Positions 8,313-24,483 of a stretch of DNA of 31,026 nucleotides are shown here, in pieces; position 1 is the first letter of the stretch, and each line of letters starts with the position of its first letter. This stretch comes from a virus, in the IMG/VR virus record IMGVR_UViG_3300031688_000077, positions 1 through 31,026 of that record; one strand, given 5' to 3'. A model generated the notes under the pieces. That model had not been told where the DNA came from, made no database searches, and saw only the letters and a list, made by a program, of their open reading frames with translations. The position numbers and the translations under genes are program-made.

Positions 8313-10294
8313 TGCCAAAAACTCTTGATTTACCAGATGGGACTATTGTTACTGATATACGTTCTTCAGCAACCACTGAGGAAATAGAAACATTTTTAGT
8401 AGGGCAAGGCGTTGTTCCTCCTTCTAACTTTGAACAGTTTCTGTACGAAGTAAACACCCCTGCCCGAAAGAAAGCATTACAAGACATAGAAGAAATTGAA
8501 GTAGACCCACAGACATACGCTGATTATATTACTCCTGCTTTAGAATTAACTTTAGGAATTCCTGCCGCTACTTTCGGAACAACTTTAGGAGGAGCAGGTG
8601 GTTTTGCTGTAGCAGGACCTGTGGGAGCCGCTGTAGGTGCAAATACCGTAGGTACTTTGTTTAGCGCGACTGCTGTAGGAACCGCTAATATCATAGGAGA
8701 AACTTTAGAGTCTTTAATAGAAGGTAGAAAAGTTGATCCTTCTTCTTCTTTTAAACAAGCTAAAGATGCCGCGCAAACAGACGCTATAATGAGTGCAGGA
8801 CTAGGTATTGTTCTTGGTGCAGGAGGAAAGTTATACAGGAAAGGAAAAGAAATTATAGGTGGTAAAAAAGGTCTTCCTGATGAAGATATAGAAATAATAA
8901 AAGAATTGCAGGGTGAATTAAAAGAAATTGACTCTACTCTTCAACCCCAAATGGTCGAACCTAAAAGAACTGCAACAGAAATATTAGGGTCGTTTGCTCG
9001 CGTTTCGCAAGTTACTAAAAGAACTGTAGAAAACTTGTTTGAGAGCTATGGGACGTACATGGGTAAACAAACAGAAAATTTAGTCAGTATGTTCAAAGGA
9101 GGTACTCCAAGAGAGCAAGGAGAAGTTCTTCAGTCTTTGATTAATCAAGTTGATACTGCTTTAGATGAGATAGTGTCTCCTGTGTATAAACAAATAGCTA
9201 AATCGGGAAAAGGAGTAGCTGTTCAAGCCAGAGAGAGAGCAAGACAGTCTGCTTTAGAGTTTAAACAAAAATTTAAAGGCGATCCTAAGTACAATAAAAA
9301 AACAGACGAGTGGGTAGAAACTTATCCAGCGTTGACAGGAAAGGCTTCTGCTCAAGTAAAAGAACTTGAAAACTTGCCAACTAATTTAAACTTTCAAGAA
9401 GCTCACGAAAGATTGTCTTCAGTCAAGCGAAGGCTACATGCCGCTAGAACTGCTTCTACCAAAGACCCTGACTATATTGAATCTCTTTCGTTAACTAGAG
9501 ACGCTTTACAAGACTCAATGCAAGAAGCCGCTAAAAAACTTAACCCTGCTTTAAAAAAACAATATGACGACGTAACTGCTTATTATGCTAAGGGACAAAA
9601 AGTAGTCAGTGATACATTCCTAGAAAAAGCAATGGATGTGTTAGACCCTTCCGAAATAGGGGCTATATTGACTAAGTCAGGTTTTACTGTAGGACTAGAT
9701 CAAGTAAACACACTTAAAAAATTAGCTTCCCAGTACGCCAAAGATTTACCTAAAGATTCTGTAGTGGGTAAAGAGTTGGCTAAACAGTTAAGAAAAACAG
9801 ACCCTATAGAAGGCATAAGGAAAGGGTTTTTAGAAGAGGCTTTAAAGTTTGAAGGGCGCGGAGGAGCTAAAAGCGTAGAACAGCTACAAGTAAAGTTAAA
9901 CGATCCTAAATTCAGGGCTACTTTTAAACACCTGTTTGCAGGAACGCCAGTAGAAAAGAAAGTGGATAAACTTATTAAAAAGCTATCTATACTCGAAAGA
10001 GGTGCTTCAGGAGGTGCAGGTTTTCAGTTGACAGTTGCACAAGCAGAGCAACAAGCCGCTAAAAATATAGCTACTGAGCCTTTAACCATAGCTAATCAAA
10101 TAATTAACTTCTTGCCAGGATTATTAGCTAGAAACAGTTTAAAGGCGAGTGAAATAGACAAGACAATTAACTTGATAGAGGCGGCTACAGAGGCTCAAAG
10201 AAGAGGAATAACATTAGGAAAAAACTATCAAGACACTCTTAAAAGCACAATGTTAGGTGTGAAAATAGGCGTTGGACTAGGTGCGTTCTTGTAA
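8312..10294 (+). CDS. Large internal virion / DNA-ejection protein
   Basis: 660 residues from ATG 8312. After an N-terminal region including FEQFLYEVNTPARKKALQDI there is a long Gly/Ala-rich hydrophobic segment (residues about 78-140, with GIPAATFGTTLGGAGGFAVAG, then VGAAVGANTVGTLFSATAVG), which could insert into or cross a membrane. The remainder is helical and charged, with many Lys/Glu/Gln residues, and ends in another hydrophobic stretch (MLGVKIGVGLGAFL). A Gly-zipper hydrophobic core within a long helical virion protein is typical of podovirus ejection proteins that build a channel across the envelope. It is the last gene of the plus-strand late block and is followed by a terminator 4 bases downstream. 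Confidence 0.6.
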   Translation: MPKTLDLPDGTIVTDIRSSATTEEIETFLVGQGVVPPSNFEQFLYEVNTPARKKALQDIEEIEVDPQTYADYITPALELTLGIPAATFGTTLGGAGGFAVAGPVGAAVGANTVGTLFSATAVGTANIIGETLESLIEGRKVDPSSSFKQAKDAAQTDAIMSAGLGIVLGAGGKLYRKGKEIIGGKKGLPDEDIEIIKELQGELKEIDSTLQPQMVEPKRTATEILGSFARVSQVTKRTVENLFESYGTYMGKQTENLVSMFKGGTPREQGEVLQSLINQVDTALDEIVSPVYKQIAKSGKGVAVQARERARQSALEFKQKFKGDPKYNKKTDEWVETYPALTGKASAQVKELENLPTNLNFQEAHERLSSVKRRLHAARTASTKDPDYIESLSLTRDALQDSMQEAAKKLNPALKKQYDDVTAYYAKGQKVVSDTFLEKAMDVLDPSEIGAILTKSGFTVGLDQVNTLKKLASQYAKDLPKDSVVGKELAKQLRKTDPIEGIRKGFLEEALKFEGRGGAKSVEQLQVKLNDPKFRATFKHLFAGTPVEKKVDKLIKKLSILERGASGGAGFQLTVAQAEQQAAKNIATEPLTIANQIINFLPGLLARNSLKASEIDKTINLIEAATEAQRRGITLGKNYQDTLKSTMLGVKIGVGLGAFL

Positions 10295-14902: not shown

Positions 14903-16633
14903 TTAGTGTGTGTCTGCCCAACTATTTCCAACTTTAAAGTCTCCTGCAAGGGGGCAGTTGAGTTTGAAATGGAGTCCTGCGGCTTCGACACAACTGGTGG
15001 CGAGGCCTCCGAAAACCTGTGCTTTCTCTGCTCTAACCTCTGTCTGGATTTCATCGTGTATATTCCCTATAAAGTTATAGTCTATACCCCATAGTATAGC
15101 ATATTCGTTAAGTAAGCACAACGCTTTTTTCATTACGATAGCACCTGCTGACTGCAACAAAGTGTTTAGTGCCGCGTGTTCTGACCGTACATAGACCCTT
15201 CGTCCATCCAAGCCATAAACATAACCTCTTCCTGCCGCCATGCCAACTCGTTCTCGTAATCTTCCAAGAGAAGGCGTATTTCTGAGGAACTTGTCCTTAA
15301 GTCTTTTACCATCCTGTTTAGTTCCTCCAACGATACTTCCGATCTTAGCATCTCCGGCCCCATAAAGGAAAGCGTAGATGAAAGTCTTTGCTTGATCTCT
15401 AGTTTCAAGGCCACTAGCCAACTGATTTGCCGTGTGGATGTCTCCCGTGAGAATTTCATTTGTGTATCCCTCGTCATTCATATAATGTGCTAACATTCGC
15501 AATTCCAAGCCGCTTGCGTCCATACCTACCAACTTGTATCCCTCTGGCACAATCCAAACATCTCTGCACTCTCTGCCGTAAGGTGAGTACACTGCGGGAA
15601 TTTGACCCATGTTCGGACTAGAATGTGTCATGCGGCCCGTCACTGCACCGTTGGAATTAACATACCCATGTACCCGCCCGTTGTCCTGAACAGCCTCCAA
15701 CCAACTCTGTACCTGTGCCACACGCTTCTGTATCATAAGATACTCAGCAATCAACGCGGCCTCTGGTATTCCCTTCACTGTACTTAGCACTGCCTCATCA
15801 ACGATGGCCTGTCCTGTCTCAGTGAACTTGGTCGGCTTCCACCCGTAATACTGTAGGTGCTTACCTATCTGCTGTCGTGACCCTAGATTGAACACAGGGA
15901 AGTCTATGCGGCTGAAAGGTGCTACTGCTGTTTGCCATTGCTCACCAAGGAACTTGAGTCCAACAACAGAGAGCGTACCATCCTTCTTAATCTTAGGGGA
16001 AATCTCTTTGATAAATGTCGGTAACGGTTTGAAAACCTTATGTACTTCGTCTTCAAGGTCATTCTTTTTCTCCTTTAATCTAGCTAATAAGTTGTATGAC
16101 TTCTCTTGGTCTAAGAGCCAACCTGTTTTAATCTGGCTTGAAATAATACCCTGTACTTGATGCTCGAGATTAATGCACTCAGGCTCAAAACCCTTAAGCT
16201 CAGAAAGTAATCTCTTGTACACCAACGTATTAACTTTAACATCCTGTACACAATACTCCAACATATCATGCGAGAAATTATCCCAATCATTATAATCACC
16301 TTTTGGTTGGTTTAGTGTCTGTCCCCAACTCTCTAAAGAATGTCCACCGTCCCTTGAGGGATTCGCTAGTCTTGATAGGACTAGGGTGTCCGTAATCTTA
16401 CACTTGCTAAAATCAGTACCTAATAATCTCTCCAACACTGGTATGTCATAGCCAATTATATTATGGCCTATCACTTCACAGTTATCAAAGCCTAGAAGCC
16501 ACTCATTGAAGTCAAACAAGCTGAAGCCGTGAAACTCAAAGAACTCTTCAGTGCCTACAATGTGAGCAACGATACACCACACTTTATCAGGGGTCAGACC
16601 GTTAGCCTCTATGTCAAATACTATTTTCCGCAT
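14903..16633 (-). CDS. polA: DNA polymerase I family replicative polymerase (T7-like) with 3'-5' exonuclease
   Basis: 576 residues. The N-terminal exonuclease shows VFDIEANG (Asp7, Glu9), GHNIIGYDIPVL (Asp63) and YCVQDVKVN (Asp131). Polymerase motif A is LVGMDASGLELRMLAHY (Asp372); motif B is RDQAKTFIYAFLYGAG (Arg412, Lys416, Tyr420, Tyr424); motif C is IHDEIQTEV (Asp527, Glu528). Tyr420 aligns with E. coli Phe762 and T7 Tyr526, the position that affects dideoxynucleotide discrimination and has been linked to phage lifestyle. It is about 130 residues shorter than T7 gp5, so a full thioredoxin-binding insertion is probably absent (inference). It works with the primase-helicase encoded upstream in the operon. 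Confidence 0.96.
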   Translation of the reverse strand: MRKIVFDIEANGLTPDKVWCIVAHIVGTEEFFEFHGFSLFDFNEWLLGFDNCEVIGHNIIGYDIPVLERLLGTDFSKCKITDTLVLSRLANPSRDGGHSLESWGQTLNQPKGDYNDWDNFSHDMLEYCVQDVKVNTLVYKRLLSELKGFEPECINLEHQVQGIISSQIKTGWLLDQEKSYNLLARLKEKKNDLEDEVHKVFKPLPTFIKEISPKIKKDGTLSVVGLKFLGEQWQTAVAPFSRIDFPVFNLGSRQQIGKHLQYYGWKPTKFTETGQAIVDEAVLSTVKGIPEAALIAEYLMIQKRVAQVQSWLEAVQDNGRVHGYVNSNGAVTGRMTHSSPNMGQIPAVYSPYGRECRDVWIVPEGYKLVGMDASGLELRMLAHYMNDEGYTNEILTGDIHTANQLASGLETRDQAKTFIYAFLYGAGDAKIGSIVGGTKQDGKRLKDKFLRNTPSLGRLRERVGMAAGRGYVYGLDGRRVYVRSEHAALNTLLQSAGAIVMKKALCLLNEYAILWGIDYNFIGNIHDEIQTEVRAEKAQVFGGLATSCVEAAGLHFKLNCPLAGDFKVGNSWADTH

Positions 16634-16946: not shown

Positions 16947-18563
16947 TTAAAACTCCGTCTCATTACCTACTGGACAACTGGTTTCTATCATTCTACCAGA
17001 CTCCTTATCATAATACAGGTAACAGGCCGGCCCTGTCAAGCCCACGAACCTATTTTTTAACACTCTCACACAGGTTGTGTTCCGTGTCTCAGGGTCTTTG
17101 TGTTGCTGATCTCGCTCTAGGCCAATAACAATGTCGCTAAGTTGCGCGATTGCCGCTGATCCTCTGAGTTCTCCCAAACTAATCTTACCGCCATCTTCAT
17201 GTGCCTTTGAGCCGCTAGGTCTACGCAGGTGCGATACTAGGAATAGCCCTACACCTGTCTCTTGTACTAGCTTACGCAAATTGGTCATGATACTGTCAAT
17301 AGCTTTACGCTCGTCCCCGTTGTCCTGATCGCTGACCACGATGCTGAGGTGATCCAAGATGATCCACTTGCAGTCCAAGCCCTTAGCCATGTAACGTATG
17401 CGGCCTAACAGGTTGTCCTCGCTTGTGGAACCCCAATGATCAAACAAGAAGATACGGCCTGAGCCTAACGTCCTGTCCCAGTATCCCTTCTTCTCTTCCT
17501 TGCTAACAGTCTTGTCTAGGTGTAACTGCTTGTTAGCCTCAATGGACATGATGCCCAACGCTGTCTTGGGGATGTCCTCCTCCAAGGCTAGGATGCCAAT
17601 GTTGTCCTCAGTAGCACCTAGCAGGTAATGCTCTAGCTCTCTGACTATCTGAGACTTACCCATGCCTGAGCCTGACGTAATGGTGACTAGCTCCTTCCTG
17701 CGGAAGCCGTGGGTCATCTCATTGAGACAGCCCCAAGGGTACAGGATAGACTTAACGTCAGCCTGTTCAACGATCATGTCCCAAGTATCACTGCCTGACA
17801 CAATGCCATCGGGTTGGTACGTCTTAGCGTTCCACCACTCTTTGACAAAGCTCTGCACCTTGTTAGCCTTGAGCATGTCCCCTGCGTCCTTCATAGGCAG
17901 AGTGACGTTCTTAGCTTTGTTGGGGGTGAATAAATCAAGGACTGACTTGGCCGCCTCCTGTCCTGCCTTGTCATTATCAAAACAGATTACGACGTTATCA
18001 AATGACTCTAACCACTCAAGGTTTTCTTTAATGTCCTTTGATGCTCCGCTTGCGCCACTTCTAATGGAGACAACGGGCCATTTCCCGTCGAACATTTCGT
18101 GAACTGCAAGTGCGTCTGCCTCGCCCTCTGTGATCGTAACGTACTTACCGCCACCCTTGAAAGCCTGTTGCCCGAACAACCCAACATTGCCAAACTCCCC
18201 TGTTGCATAAAAACCCTTGTTGTCCACAATGCGAACCTTAGTACCCGTAGGTGTACCTGAGTCCTTGTCGTGGTATGGATAGTGGTGCTTGACAATTTGC
18301 CCCTGTGCGCTGTACTCAACCGTCACACCATACTTCTGTGCTATTGATTGACTGATACGCCTGTCAGGGATTGCCGCTACTATTCCTGTCATCTCTAATC
18401 GCCTCGCTCGACTTGGTGTTACATTTACAACTTGACCAGTGCCTCTCTCGTAATGGTCACAACCGCCTGTAAAACAAACGGCATGACCATCGGAGTACCT
18501 CGCTAAGTTGTCCTGTGAGCCACACGCAGGGCATGGCTCATGTTTAACAAAGGTTGATGACAC
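16947..18563 (-). CDS. Bifunctional DNA primase-helicase (T7 gp4-like)
   Basis: 538 residues. The N-terminal zinc finger has CPAC (Cys11, Cys14) and HAVCFTGGC (Cys30, Cys35). The TOPRIM primase core shows VTITEGEADALA (Glu146, Asp150) and VVICFDNDKAG (Asp196, Asp198). The RecA-like helicase domain has Walker A SGSGMGKS (Lys303), ILALEEDIPKT, Walker B KWIILDHLS (Asp404) and FLVSHLRRP. It makes RNA primers and unwinds the fork as a hexameric ring. Length is close to T7 gp4 (566). The gene looks GC-richer than the late genes. It lies directly after the SSB-like gene and upstream of the polymerase. Confidence 0.96.
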   Translation of the reverse strand: MSSTFVKHEPCPACGSQDNLARYSDGHAVCFTGGCDHYERGTGQVVNVTPSRARRLEMTGIVAAIPDRRISQSIAQKYGVTVEYSAQGQIVKHHYPYHDKDSGTPTGTKVRIVDNKGFYATGEFGNVGLFGQQAFKGGGKYVTITEGEADALAVHEMFDGKWPVVSIRSGASGASKDIKENLEWLESFDNVVICFDNDKAGQEAAKSVLDLFTPNKAKNVTLPMKDAGDMLKANKVQSFVKEWWNAKTYQPDGIVSGSDTWDMIVEQADVKSILYPWGCLNEMTHGFRRKELVTITSGSGMGKSQIVRELEHYLLGATEDNIGILALEEDIPKTALGIMSIEANKQLHLDKTVSKEEKKGYWDRTLGSGRIFLFDHWGSTSEDNLLGRIRYMAKGLDCKWIILDHLSIVVSDQDNGDERKAIDSIMTNLRKLVQETGVGLFLVSHLRRPSGSKAHEDGGKISLGELRGSAAIAQLSDIVIGLERDQQHKDPETRNTTCVRVLKNRFVGLTGPACYLYYDKESGRMIETSCPVGNETEF

Positions 18564-21645: not shown

Positions 21646-21660
21646 TGATAATGATTCTCA
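21646..21660. promoter_or_regulatory. Fur-box-like operator
   Basis: TGATAATGATTCTCA matches the 7-1-7 inverted-repeat form of the Fur consensus (TGATAAT-N-ATTATCA, read on either strand) at all but one of 14 defined positions, and the 19-base form GATAATGATAATCATTATC at 15 of 19. It lies between the minus-strand promoter and the first minus-strand gene, about 30-45 bases after the predicted transcript start. Confidence 0.55.
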
Positions 21661-21664
21661 TTTA

Positions 21665-21683
21665 CAAGGGATCATTTCCCTTG
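21665..21683. repeat. Short hairpin in the early leader
   Basis: CAAGGGA (21665-21671) pairs with TCCCTTG (21677-21683) around a 5-base loop, directly after the predicted minus-strand start site and before the Fur-box-like site. It could stabilise the 5' end of the early transcript or serve as a binding site; the function is unknown. Confidence 0.4.
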
Positions 21684-21695
21684 CCTCTTGCACCC

Positions 21696-21724
21696 ATTAT
21701 AGGGCCTGAACAGCTACATGCTAA
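21696..21724 (-). promoter_or_regulatory. Sigma70-type early promoter
   Basis: On the minus strand TTAGCA (21724-21719) is 17 bases from a perfect TATAAT (21701-21696). It points at the gene at 21627 and thus the whole early block. The predicted start lies near 21689. Confidence 0.6.
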
Positions 21725-21836
21725 TGCTTTATATGCATGACCTTAGTAAACTATATGCATCTAGTGCATGACTATATGATACCTTCTAACACACGCGTGC
21801 GCGTAGCAATAACCGTGCCAACTATTGTCTGCTTGT

Positions 21837-21875
21837 GTCATGCAAGAGTCATGCCAGTGTGTGCTAGTGTGTGCT
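21837..21875. repeat. 10-11 bp spaced direct repeats upstream of the main array
   Basis: GTCATGC occurs at 21837 and 21848 (11 apart), and AGTGTGTGCT is repeated back to back at 21856-21865 and 21866-21875. A one-mismatch DnaA box, GTATCCACA, follows at 21880-21888. The spacing places each element on the same DNA face. Confidence 0.6.
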
Positions 21876-21984
21876 ATAGGTATCCACAAGCACACTCACA
21901 CTTCAACTGTCAAACATAAGCTCGACCCAATGGCGGCCCTTGGTCACCCATGCAATACCCGTGCCAACATAAGCACCATGCCCC

Positions 21985-22072
21985 ATGTATAACCTGTGGA
22001 TAACTTATGCACACCTTATGCACAGGCCATGTATAACTCATGTATAACTTATGTATAACCTGTGGATAACTT
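21985..22072. repeat. Eight tandem 11-bp iterons with DnaA boxes (candidate replication origin)
   Basis: The 88 bases divide exactly into eight units: ATGTATAACCT, GTGGATAACTT, ATGCACACCTT, ATGCACAGGCC, ATGTATAACTC, ATGTATAACTT, ATGTATAACCT, GTGGATAACTT. Units 1-2 equal units 7-8. Four perfect matches to the DnaA box TTATNCACA occur: TTATCCACA on the minus strand at 21995-22003 and 22061-22069, and TTATGCACA on the plus strand at 22005-22013 and 22016-22024. A G-rich block and an AT-rich stretch follow. An iteron array with DnaA boxes plus an AT-rich unwinding zone is the usual make-up of a bacterial or plasmid-type origin; the origin role here is inference. Confidence 0.75.
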
Positions 22073-22306
22073 TAGGGGGCGGGGGGCCGCGTGGCTTCTC
22101 AAGATTGTTACAGTACCCGCATGTATACAAAAAAGGAGTAATTAGGAAAAAGGAATAGTATACATATGTATCCATAAGTCATTGATTTACATAAGGAAAC
22201 ACAGGCTGGCCCTTAGGGTGAGACACAAGCAAATAAAGGACAACATGAGTTGACACACAAGTAGCTTGATTGGTCATTAATAGTTAGTATATAGTTAAAA
22301 TAAAGC

Positions 22307-22335
22307 TTGACTTTTGATTCAGGATATGCTATAAT
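22307..22335 (+). promoter_or_regulatory. Strong sigma70-type promoter ahead of TerS (late/packaging operon)
   Basis: TTGACT (22307-22312), 17-base spacer, TATAAT (22330-22335). The element closely matches the promoter at 27204-27232: both have CTTGACTTTTGAYT and ATATGCTAYAAT. It drives the plus-strand block starting with TerS. Confidence 0.8.
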
Positions 22336-22367
22336 ATTCATAAGAAGTAAAGGGTTTCAGAGTCGCC

Positions 22368-22453
22368 CTTAAGTATCCTTAAGTAAGCTTTAAGTAGGTT
22401 ATTAATTATTAAATTAAAGAATATTCTAAAGTTTACTTAAGTATCCTTAAGTA
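22368..22453. repeat. TTAAGTA iterons between promoter and TerS
   Basis: TTAAGTA occurs five times at 22369, 22379, 22390, 22437 and 22447. The 18-base CTTAAGTATCCTTAAGTA is present exactly twice (22368-22385 and 22436-22453). Steps of 10, 11 and 10 bases put the elements on one face of the helix. The central part is AT-rich (about 22397-22431). It may bind TerS, a repressor, or be the packaging site. Confidence 0.7.
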
Positions 22454-22469
22454 CATAAGGGGAAATACC

Positions 22470-22877
22470 TTGAGTGAAAAAGAAGTAGAGTCAGTCTCCT
22501 CCGCGAAGCGGAAAGGCCGCCCTAAGAAATCAGATGTTGTGTCAAGAAAGAAAGGCACTACTGGTTTAACCAGAGGTAGGCCGAAGGGTGATGCGGCAAT
22601 CATCAACGAGTACAAAAGTCGGATGTTGACATCCCCTAAGTCTCGTAAAGTGTTAGAGTCAATCTTTGATGCGGCCCTAAACGATGATCATAAGAACCAA
22701 GCCGCGGCATGGAAGTTAGTCATGGATCGAATCCTCCCGACTGCTGTCTTTGAAAAGGACGTAGTAAAAGGAGCAGGTAGGTCAGCTATACAAATAAACA
22801 TTACAGGTGTTGGTGGTGATACTACTGTCGTATCCGCAGGTGATGATGACTTGGAAGGAGATTATATAGATGGCTGA
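22470..22877 (+). CDS. Terminase small subunit candidate with AT-hook-like motifs
   Basis: 135 residues. The start is TTG 22470, 7 bases after AAGGGG; no ATG or GTG is available nearby in frame. Residues 13-40 hold two GRP cores, KRKGRPKKSD and RGRPKGD, resembling AT-hooks that contact the minor groove. The middle (residues 46-100) is helical, with SRKVLESIFDAALNDDHKNQAAAWKLVMDRILP, and the C terminus is acidic (SAGDDDLEGDYIDG). Position just before an endolysin and TerL, size and acidic tail fit a small terminase that recognises DNA for packaging. The repeats directly upstream may be its target. TTG suggests low translation. Confidence 0.7.
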   Translation: MSEKEVESVSSAKRKGRPKKSDVVSRKKGTTGLTRGRPKGDAAIINEYKSRMLTSPKSRKVLESIFDAALNDDHKNQAAAWKLVMDRILPTAVFEKDVVKGAGRSAIQINITGVGGDTTVVSAGDDDLEGDYIDG

Positions 22878-23229: not shown

Positions 23230-24483
23230 TTGACTGAACTTAATGTATCGCTACTCCCGTGGCAACAGAAAGTCTTTAATGATAACACTAGATTTAAAGT
23301 CATAGCCGCAGGTAGACGTACAGGCAAAAGTAGATTAGCCGCTTGGATGCTAATCATTAGAGCTTTGCAAGCCGAACGTGGACATGTGTTCTACGTTGCC
23401 CCTACACAGGGACAGGCTAGGGACATTATGTGGCAAGTCTTGCTAGAGATAGGTCATCCTGTCATAGCGTCTAGCCATGTAAACAACCTACAAATGAAAT
23501 TAGTCAACGGTGCTACCATCGCCCTTAAGGGTGCTGACAGACCAGAAACCATGCGTGGTGTCAGTCTTAGGTTCTTGGTTATGGATGAGTACGCTGACAT
23601 GAAGCCTGAAGTATGGGAGCAGATACTGCGTCCTGCCTTGGCTGACCAAAAGGGTGATGCACTGTTCATTGGTACGCCAATGGGTCGTAATCACTTCTAT
23701 GATTTATATACATATGCTTGTGTGTCCGATGATGATACGTTTGTAGGTTATCATTTCACAAGCTACGATAACCCATTGCTAGACCCTGAGGAAATAGAAG
23801 CGGCTAAGAAATCAATGTCTTCCTTCTCCTTCCGTCAGGAGTTCATGGCATCCTTTGAGGCCCAAGGTAGTGAATTATTCAAAGAAGAGTATATTAAATT
23901 CTCTGAGGAAGAGCCTGAACAAGGCCAGTTTTACATTGCGGTTGACTTGGCGGGTTTTGCGGATGTCGCTAAAGTTACAACGAAGACAAAAAGACTTGAC
24001 CAAACGGCTATCTCAGTGGTTAAAGCAAGTGAAGAAGGTTGGTGGGTTGCTAATATTATACATGGGCGTTGGGGTGTCGAAGAGACTGCCCGAAGAATCT
24101 TCCAAGCAGTCAGAGACTACCAACCAGTAGCTGTAGGTATAGAGAAGGGAGCTTTAAAGAACGCTGTACTTCCTTACCTAAACGACCAGATGAAGAAAAA
24201 CCAACGCTTCTTTAGGGTGGATGCACTTACCCACGGTAATAAAAAGAAGACGGACAGGATTGTTTGGGCCTTACAAGGAAGGTTTGAGCATGGTACTATC
24301 TCTTTGAATAAAGGAGAATGGAACAGCCAGTTCCTTGATGAGTTATTTCAATTTCCTAACCAATTAGTCCACGATGACTTAATTGATTCTTTGTCTTACA
24401 TAGATCAATTAGCAAACATAGCTTACACATCGGACTTTGAGGAAGAGGAATATCAACTATTAGACACATACGCAGGGTATTAA
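23230..24483 (+). CDS. Terminase large subunit (packaging ATPase and nuclease)
   Basis: 417 residues. The frame starts with TTG 23230 immediately after the endolysin's TAA; no ATG or GTG occurs nearby in frame. ATPase: AAGRRTGKS (Lys33, Walker A), FLVMDEYADM (Asp119, Glu120, Walker B) and FIGTPMG (148-152, coupling motif). Nuclease: FYIAVDLAG (Asp239), VGIEKGA (Glu305) and VHDDLIDSLSY (Asp382/383, Asp386), the RNase H-like catalytic acids. It cuts concatemers and pumps DNA into proheads through the portal encoded next. Confidence 0.95.
   Translation: MTELNVSLLPWQQKVFNDNTRFKVIAAGRRTGKSRLAAWMLIIRALQAERGHVFYVAPTQGQARDIMWQVLLEIGHPVIASSHVNNLQMKLVNGATIALKGADRPETMRGVSLRFLVMDEYADMKPEVWEQILRPALADQKGDALFIGTPMGRNHFYDLYTYACVSDDDTFVGYHFTSYDNPLLDPEEIEAAKKSMSSFSFRQEFMASFEAQGSELFKEEYIKFSEEEPEQGQFYIAVDLAGFADVAKVTTKTKRLDQTAISVVKASEEGWWVANIIHGRWGVEETARRIFQAVRDYQPVAVGIEKGALKNAVLPYLNDQMKKNQRFFRVDALTHGNKKKTDRIVWALQGRFEHGTISLNKGEWNSQFLDELFQFPNQLVHDDLIDSLSYIDQLANIAYTSDFEEEEYQLLDTYAGY

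Follow-up and report, generated by a model that had tools for sequence, protein, structure and literature searches.

DnaA boxes are known from replication origins such as bacterial oriC. Replication of phage T7, the type member of the T7-like phages, starts by phage transcription, and to our knowledge the lytic phages of this group are held not to depend on DnaA. We also know of no settled account of how phages with direct terminal repeats (DTRs) regenerate two repeats from the one copy at a junction. Sites for a host cell-cycle regulator have been described in such repeats: CtrA sites of alphaproteobacterial phages cluster in DTRs or gap regions, and the positional asymmetry was not seen for DnaA sites in the same phages (PMC9437464). 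Another study combines terminal repeats, DnaA boxes and a T7-like phage, and predicts an origin elsewhere in its genome (PMC11512268). DnaA-box arrays in podophage DTRs were not described in the open-access literature searched. Here we analyze such an array in a phage from metagenomic sequence.

The window, i.e., the whole stretch of DNA that was analyzed, is an IMG/VR virus record of 31,026 bp, and the phage is a marine podovirus. Megablast returned no near relatives among named phages, and the best polymerase matches were Pelagibacter phages HTVC103P/104P (53%). Assignment of a host was tried and rejected, the only matches being contigs from MAGs that carry a mixture of labels (Sphingobacteriales, Verrucomicrobiales, Flavobacteriales) and are possibly misbinned. 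Replication genes run leftward from 21364 and terS, terL and the structural genes run rightward from 22470 (Table 1). Besides polymerase and primase-helicase, the leftward genes encode a GP88-family protein, a gp2.5-like SSB, a 5'-3' exonuclease and a T7-type endonuclease I, giving a T7-like replication set among the proteins scanned; the other rightward genes include a peptidase M15, an SU10/P22-type portal and the major head protein. No RNA polymerase was found among the phage proteins scanned. The position of the array at an early/late divergence, followed by a G-rich block and an AT-rich stretch, is as given in a preliminary description of the sequence, and the same dip in G+C between the repeat and terS is visible in the mean of 42 relatives. 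The AT-rich terS leader further contains a 25-nt inverted repeat (CTTAAGTATCCTTAAGTAAGCTTTA, 22368-22451) that is 88% complementary with arms 34 nt apart.

Table 1. Coordinates of the array, the surrounding junction region and selected genes in the window.
Feature	Position	Strand	Basis or remark
Family A DNA polymerase	14903..16633	-	Protein search
Primase-helicase	16947..18563	-	Protein search
Sigma70-type promoter candidate, leftward genes, weaker	21696..21724	-	10/12 matches
Left flanking repeat GTATCCACAAGCACAC, presumed cut element for terminase	21880..21895	+	Kept in relatives
Inferred DTR, ~233 bp	21883..22115		Limits +/- few bases; homology, flanking repeats, contig ends
Sigma54-type -24/-12 element, exact, inside inferred repeat	21951..21966	-	Reads leftward
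DnaA-box array, eight 11-bp units	21985..22072		Sequence reading and shuffles
Exact DnaA box TTATCCACA	21995..22003	-	Sequence match
Exact DnaA box TTATGCACA	22005..22013	+	Sequence match
Exact DnaA box TTATGCACA	22016..22024	+	Sequence match
Exact DnaA box TTATCCACA, adjoins G block	22061..22069	-	Most constant box among relatives (CCTGTGGATAACTTTAGGGGGCGGGGG)
G block GGGGGCGGGGGG, conserved	22075..22086	+	Kept among relatives
Right flanking repeat GTACCCGCATGTATAC, then AAAAAAG	22113..22128	+	Kept in relatives
AT-rich leader between repeat and terS	22129..22469		G+C down to 17%
Sigma70-type promoter TTGACT-17-TATAAT, late genes	22307..22335	+	11/12 matches
Probable small terminase gene (terS)	22470..22877	+	DUF5681 below curated cut-off; position before terL
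Large terminase gene (terL)	23230..24483	+	Protein search

The 88 bases of the array consist of units in the order ATGTATAACCT GTGGATAACTT ATGCACACCTT ATGCACAGGCC ATGTATAACTC ATGTATAACTT ATGTATAACCT GTGGATAACTT, the first two being identical to the last two. This register and the repetition of units 1-2 as units 7-8 had been noted before and proved exact at the same coordinates, and sequence matching confirmed the four exact DnaA boxes (TTATNCACA), two in each orientation. The unit formula proposed at that time, RTGYAYAACYT, fits poorly to units 3-4, which carry the box reversed. The remaining units have one or two mismatches to the box (TTATACATR), so that consensus and weaker sites are mixed. 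The 1.1-kb intergenic region was shuffled 2000 times with dinucleotide composition preserved, and no shuffle reached the observed four boxes per 88 bp (shuffle maximum 2) or the 56 of 77 matches at lag 11 (shuffle maximum 41). Two other exact boxes in the window, at 9181 and 12224, are both isolated. The array thus resembles oriC in having a box cluster beyond chance with helical spacing of its 11-bp units, which would permit cooperative assembly. In bacteria, the basal unwinding system consists of DnaA-trios next to a DnaA box (PMC8287927). A simple scan beside the array found no DnaA-trio run. AT-rich DNA lies at least 60 bp to the right of the array, and the main box orientation points the opposite way if the geometry of the E. 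coli R1 box is applied, which would place the expected unwinding region away from the AT-rich DNA.

The segment between the flanking repeats is probably a DTR, which would place the array at the concatemer junction. This assignment follows from the exact DTR of a relative, from flanking direct repeats and from contig ends. The relative, the distantly related G001 (IMG/VR 3300050343_000022; 36,338 bp), has an exact terminal overlap of 221 bp with seven boxes at both ends, and the limits of the overlap correspond to the flanking direct-repeat elements of the window; identity to the window phage is 59% for terL and 48% for primase-helicase and polymerase. An imperfect direct-repeat pair surrounds the array in most relatives, at a distance of ~130-250 bp. 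Two contigs of the G001 clade (L345, L348) both begin at the left repeat (CCCTAC), and in the clade of the window one contig from the early side (L282) ends, and one from the late side (L076) begins, no more than a few bases from the right repeat; since further contigs end at other places in the region, the latter two ends are supporting rather than decisive. The 127-bp terminal overlap of G004 has the length of a widely used assembler k-mer and was not accepted as a DTR, and no exact terminal overlap was present in the long contigs G002, G005-G007, G009, G019, G022 and G023. The window holds a single copy of the repeat, corresponding to one pass through the junction, presumably because both copies collapse into one when short reads are assembled. 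Immediately to the left of the right flanking repeat, TGTTACAGT (22103-22114) matches nine bases just right of the T7 terminal repeat (ATCTGTTACAGT), which may be chance.

Many relatives in IMG/VR likewise have boxes at the matching place upstream of terS. A terL search gave 80 IMG/VR loci, and ~18 of the ~41 that span the region have at least two exact boxes at 1.05-1.45 kb upstream of terL, a fraction that leaves out loci found by their DnaA pattern, which contain boxes by construction. The boxes are confined to the segment: 105 exact boxes were counted within 41 distinct aligned segments and 0 and 5 in flanks of equal size, and inclusion of some pattern-found loci in this set inflates the box count but leaves the confinement unaffected. 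One orientation is shared by 92 of these 105 boxes, and distances between boxes in relatives cluster at 11, 22 and 53-55 bp, i.e., a phase of 10.5-11 bp. In near relatives, the number and order of units vary, while TGTGGATAA is kept, as is the last box, next to the G block.

On the terL tree, the array is maintained but modular, being gained and lost repeatedly. All 14 rows nearest to the window carry it, whereas over the whole tree the trait changes 14 times, with at least 12 changes forced by well-supported branches. Presence in close relatives, which the preliminary description had taken as a test, therefore holds for the nearest rows but not for the tree as a whole. Because many relatives have no boxes and sisters with nearly identical terL differ in the array, it is not essential across the clade. 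In several box-less loci (L050, L053, L061, L062, L066, L069, L038), TTGACA-N12-TRTGMTA stands directly before the G block, at the place of the last DnaA box elsewhere; a sigma70 promoter replacing the array was rejected as an explanation, since TTGACA and TATGMTA are spaced 12 bp and not 16-18. A pattern scan of IMG/VR gave at least 120 stretches (L086-L204) in which three exact boxes follow one another in 11-bp steps. Many of the stretches are non-homologous to the phage, and some lie ~250 bp or less from an end of a long contig (G002, G005, G006, G007).

As to what would bind the array, none of 13 virus records encodes DnaA domain IV, the DNA-binding part, whereas control genomes matched as expected, and a phage-encoded DnaA was rejected on this ground. 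No protein of a Rep family was found among the phage proteins scanned. The sequence that is kept during turnover of the array is the bacterial consensus TTATCCACA. Because of the lack of domain IV in the 13 records, host DnaA is the expected ligand, a prediction that is well supported at the level of sequence. A phage initiator had been listed as an option; one that resembles DnaA is disfavored by the same lack and by the retention of the bacterial consensus.

We tentatively propose, at somewhat less than even likelihood, that host DnaA bound to the array in the DTR opens DNA and starts synthesis, for duplication of the repeat and/or as an origin. As part of the DTR, helically phased boxes for host DnaA would occur at either end of the genome and at each junction within a concatemer. 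Host DnaA would assemble on them and open or remodel the neighboring duplex beside the G block, and the opened junction may be the place where DNA synthesis begins, for terminal-repeat duplication and/or as replication origin, and where the phage primase-helicase and polymerase would be loaded. The comparisons described above support the array and its conservation, the lack of a DnaA encoded by the phage and, through homology, the position within the repeat; DnaA binding, duplex opening and initiation we infer from sequence. Points that count against the mechanism are the lack of a DnaA-trio run, the box orientation, the box-less relatives, the presence of other regulator-like sites and the single repeat copy. 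The DnaA-dependent origin of the preliminary description survives to the extent that an origin-type role is still the leading reading, but the DTR location and the parallel in T7-like phages had been missed.

This parallel appeared when a synthetic box-array query matched 93 phage records. Exact boxes are present in the deposited DTRs of Enterobacter phiEap-1 (five in 195 bp), Shigella A7 (four in 177 bp), Klebsiella ZK1 (six in 292 bp) and Klebsiella Kp7 (five in 238 bp); none occur in the 160-bp DTR of T7 or at the T7 ends. P483, nasanit and FBKp16 have the array at the junction position, with the gene at the terminase position on one side and the early genes on the other. Not all phage DnaA arrays are terminal, since Lactococcus 949-like phages and microviruses have box arrays away from recognized ends. 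The occurrence of the array both in relatives and in several unrelated T7-like phages suggests that host DnaA is recruited to genome ends. It is a rather unlikely generalization that several unrelated podophage lineages use host DnaA at DTR arrays to start synthesis at the junction and in this way solve terminal-repeat duplication.

A regulatory or landing-pad role is a strong rival to DnaA-started synthesis. In one version, unlikely as it stands, the repeat and early leader would gather DnaA, sigma54 RNA polymerase and Fur sites, early transcription would sense the replication and nutrient state of the host, and DnaA, as a transcription factor, would control the divergent promoters between which the array lies. 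This would account for the strong enrichment of sigma54-type sites, 39 of which were counted across 27 of 74 aligned loci (5 and 0 in the flanks, 0 with a reversed control pattern), and for the Fur-like boxes of the G001 clade, present in 6 of its 19 repeats (shuffle mean 0.02), with a Fur-box-like sequence, GATAATGATTCTCATTTAC, also at 21647-21665 in the early leader of the window. It has a precedent in the CtrA clusters of alphaproteobacterial phage DTRs (PMC9437464). However, each of the two sigma70-type promoters is separated from the array by at least ~235 bp, and the promoter layout is different in T7-like phages with DTR arrays. Taken together, the regulator-like sites and other repeats favor a platform for host proteins and weaken a purely DnaA-origin view. 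Further sigma54-type elements (TGGCACN5TTGCA, 0-1 mismatch) are found on the minus strand at 21805-21820 and 21841-21856, toward the leftward genes, and locus L409 has six in the homologous segment. Strong Fur-like boxes lie within the terminal repeats of sister-clade loci L352, L354, L343, L347, L355 and L101, in L101 and L355 together with DnaA boxes, and Zur-box-like palindromes (ATGATACGTTATAACATAACAT) were seen, by eye only, upstream of the repeat in L343, L344 and L347, near the leftward genes.

Host proteins bound at the repeat might also form a generic nucleoprotein block that stalls polymerases or marks the junction for the terminase cut, comparable to the T7 RNA polymerase-lysozyme pause at the concatemer junction; it is a paused polymerase that starts T7 maturation (PMC3276506). 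Such a block, which we consider improbable, agrees with the constancy of the cut-site repeats and G block in aligned segments in which array content varies, and with the other repeated motifs of box-less repeats (39% at z>3; flanks 3-6%), but many box-less repeats have no evident array, and the T7-like array phages also retain a T7-like TATCTGTTAG or TATCTGTAAG element at the junction. A sponge that titrates host DnaA and stops host initiation would need no partner gene, and several consensus sites per repeat, with two repeats per genome, would be amplified by replication. It would leave the confinement to the terminal repeat unexplained and would offer few sites per genome before replication; moreover, the phage has a T7-type endonuclease I, and T7 breaks down host DNA anyway. 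Titration is quite improbable. Very unlikely is an ordinary internal DnaA-dependent origin in a circularly permuted phage, with a segment that is not a terminal repeat. The AT-rich DNA adjoining the array is in line with it, as is the GC-skew minimum at ~22 kb, obtained from the calculation that the preliminary description had recommended, but skew also tracks gene direction and is confounded as origin evidence, and termini are indicated by the exact DTR found in the relative, by the direct repeats on either side and by the places where contigs end.

Because the array recurs not only in a large clade of uncultured phages but also in phages of Klebsiella, Enterobacter and Shigella that can be cultivated, a role of host DnaA is directly testable in the laboratory. 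Such a role would extend to DnaA the idea, so far reported for CtrA, that cell-cycle regulators of the host use terminal repeats as platforms. Like the CtrA clusters, the array concentrates sites for such a regulator in terminal repeats or gap regions, the difference being the regulator itself. With bacterial oriC it shares consensus and weaker boxes, 11-bp steps and AT-rich DNA nearby, the latter on the side opposite to that expected from the E. coli geometry, whereas it has no DnaA-trio run and probably sits in a phage terminal repeat. T7 has a similar replication set and a short-repeat array (CCTAAAG) in and beside its 160-bp DTR, but these repeats are not DnaA boxes, and at the junction T7 relies on an RNA polymerase of its own. 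The T7-like array phages also have consensus boxes, mostly in a single orientation, inside or at the terminal repeat, and in phiEap-1 and A7 a short direct repeat marks the edges of the terminal repeat. They differ from the window phage in a spacing that is often ~21-22 bp, in the opposite gene order around the junction and in encoding their own RNA polymerase.
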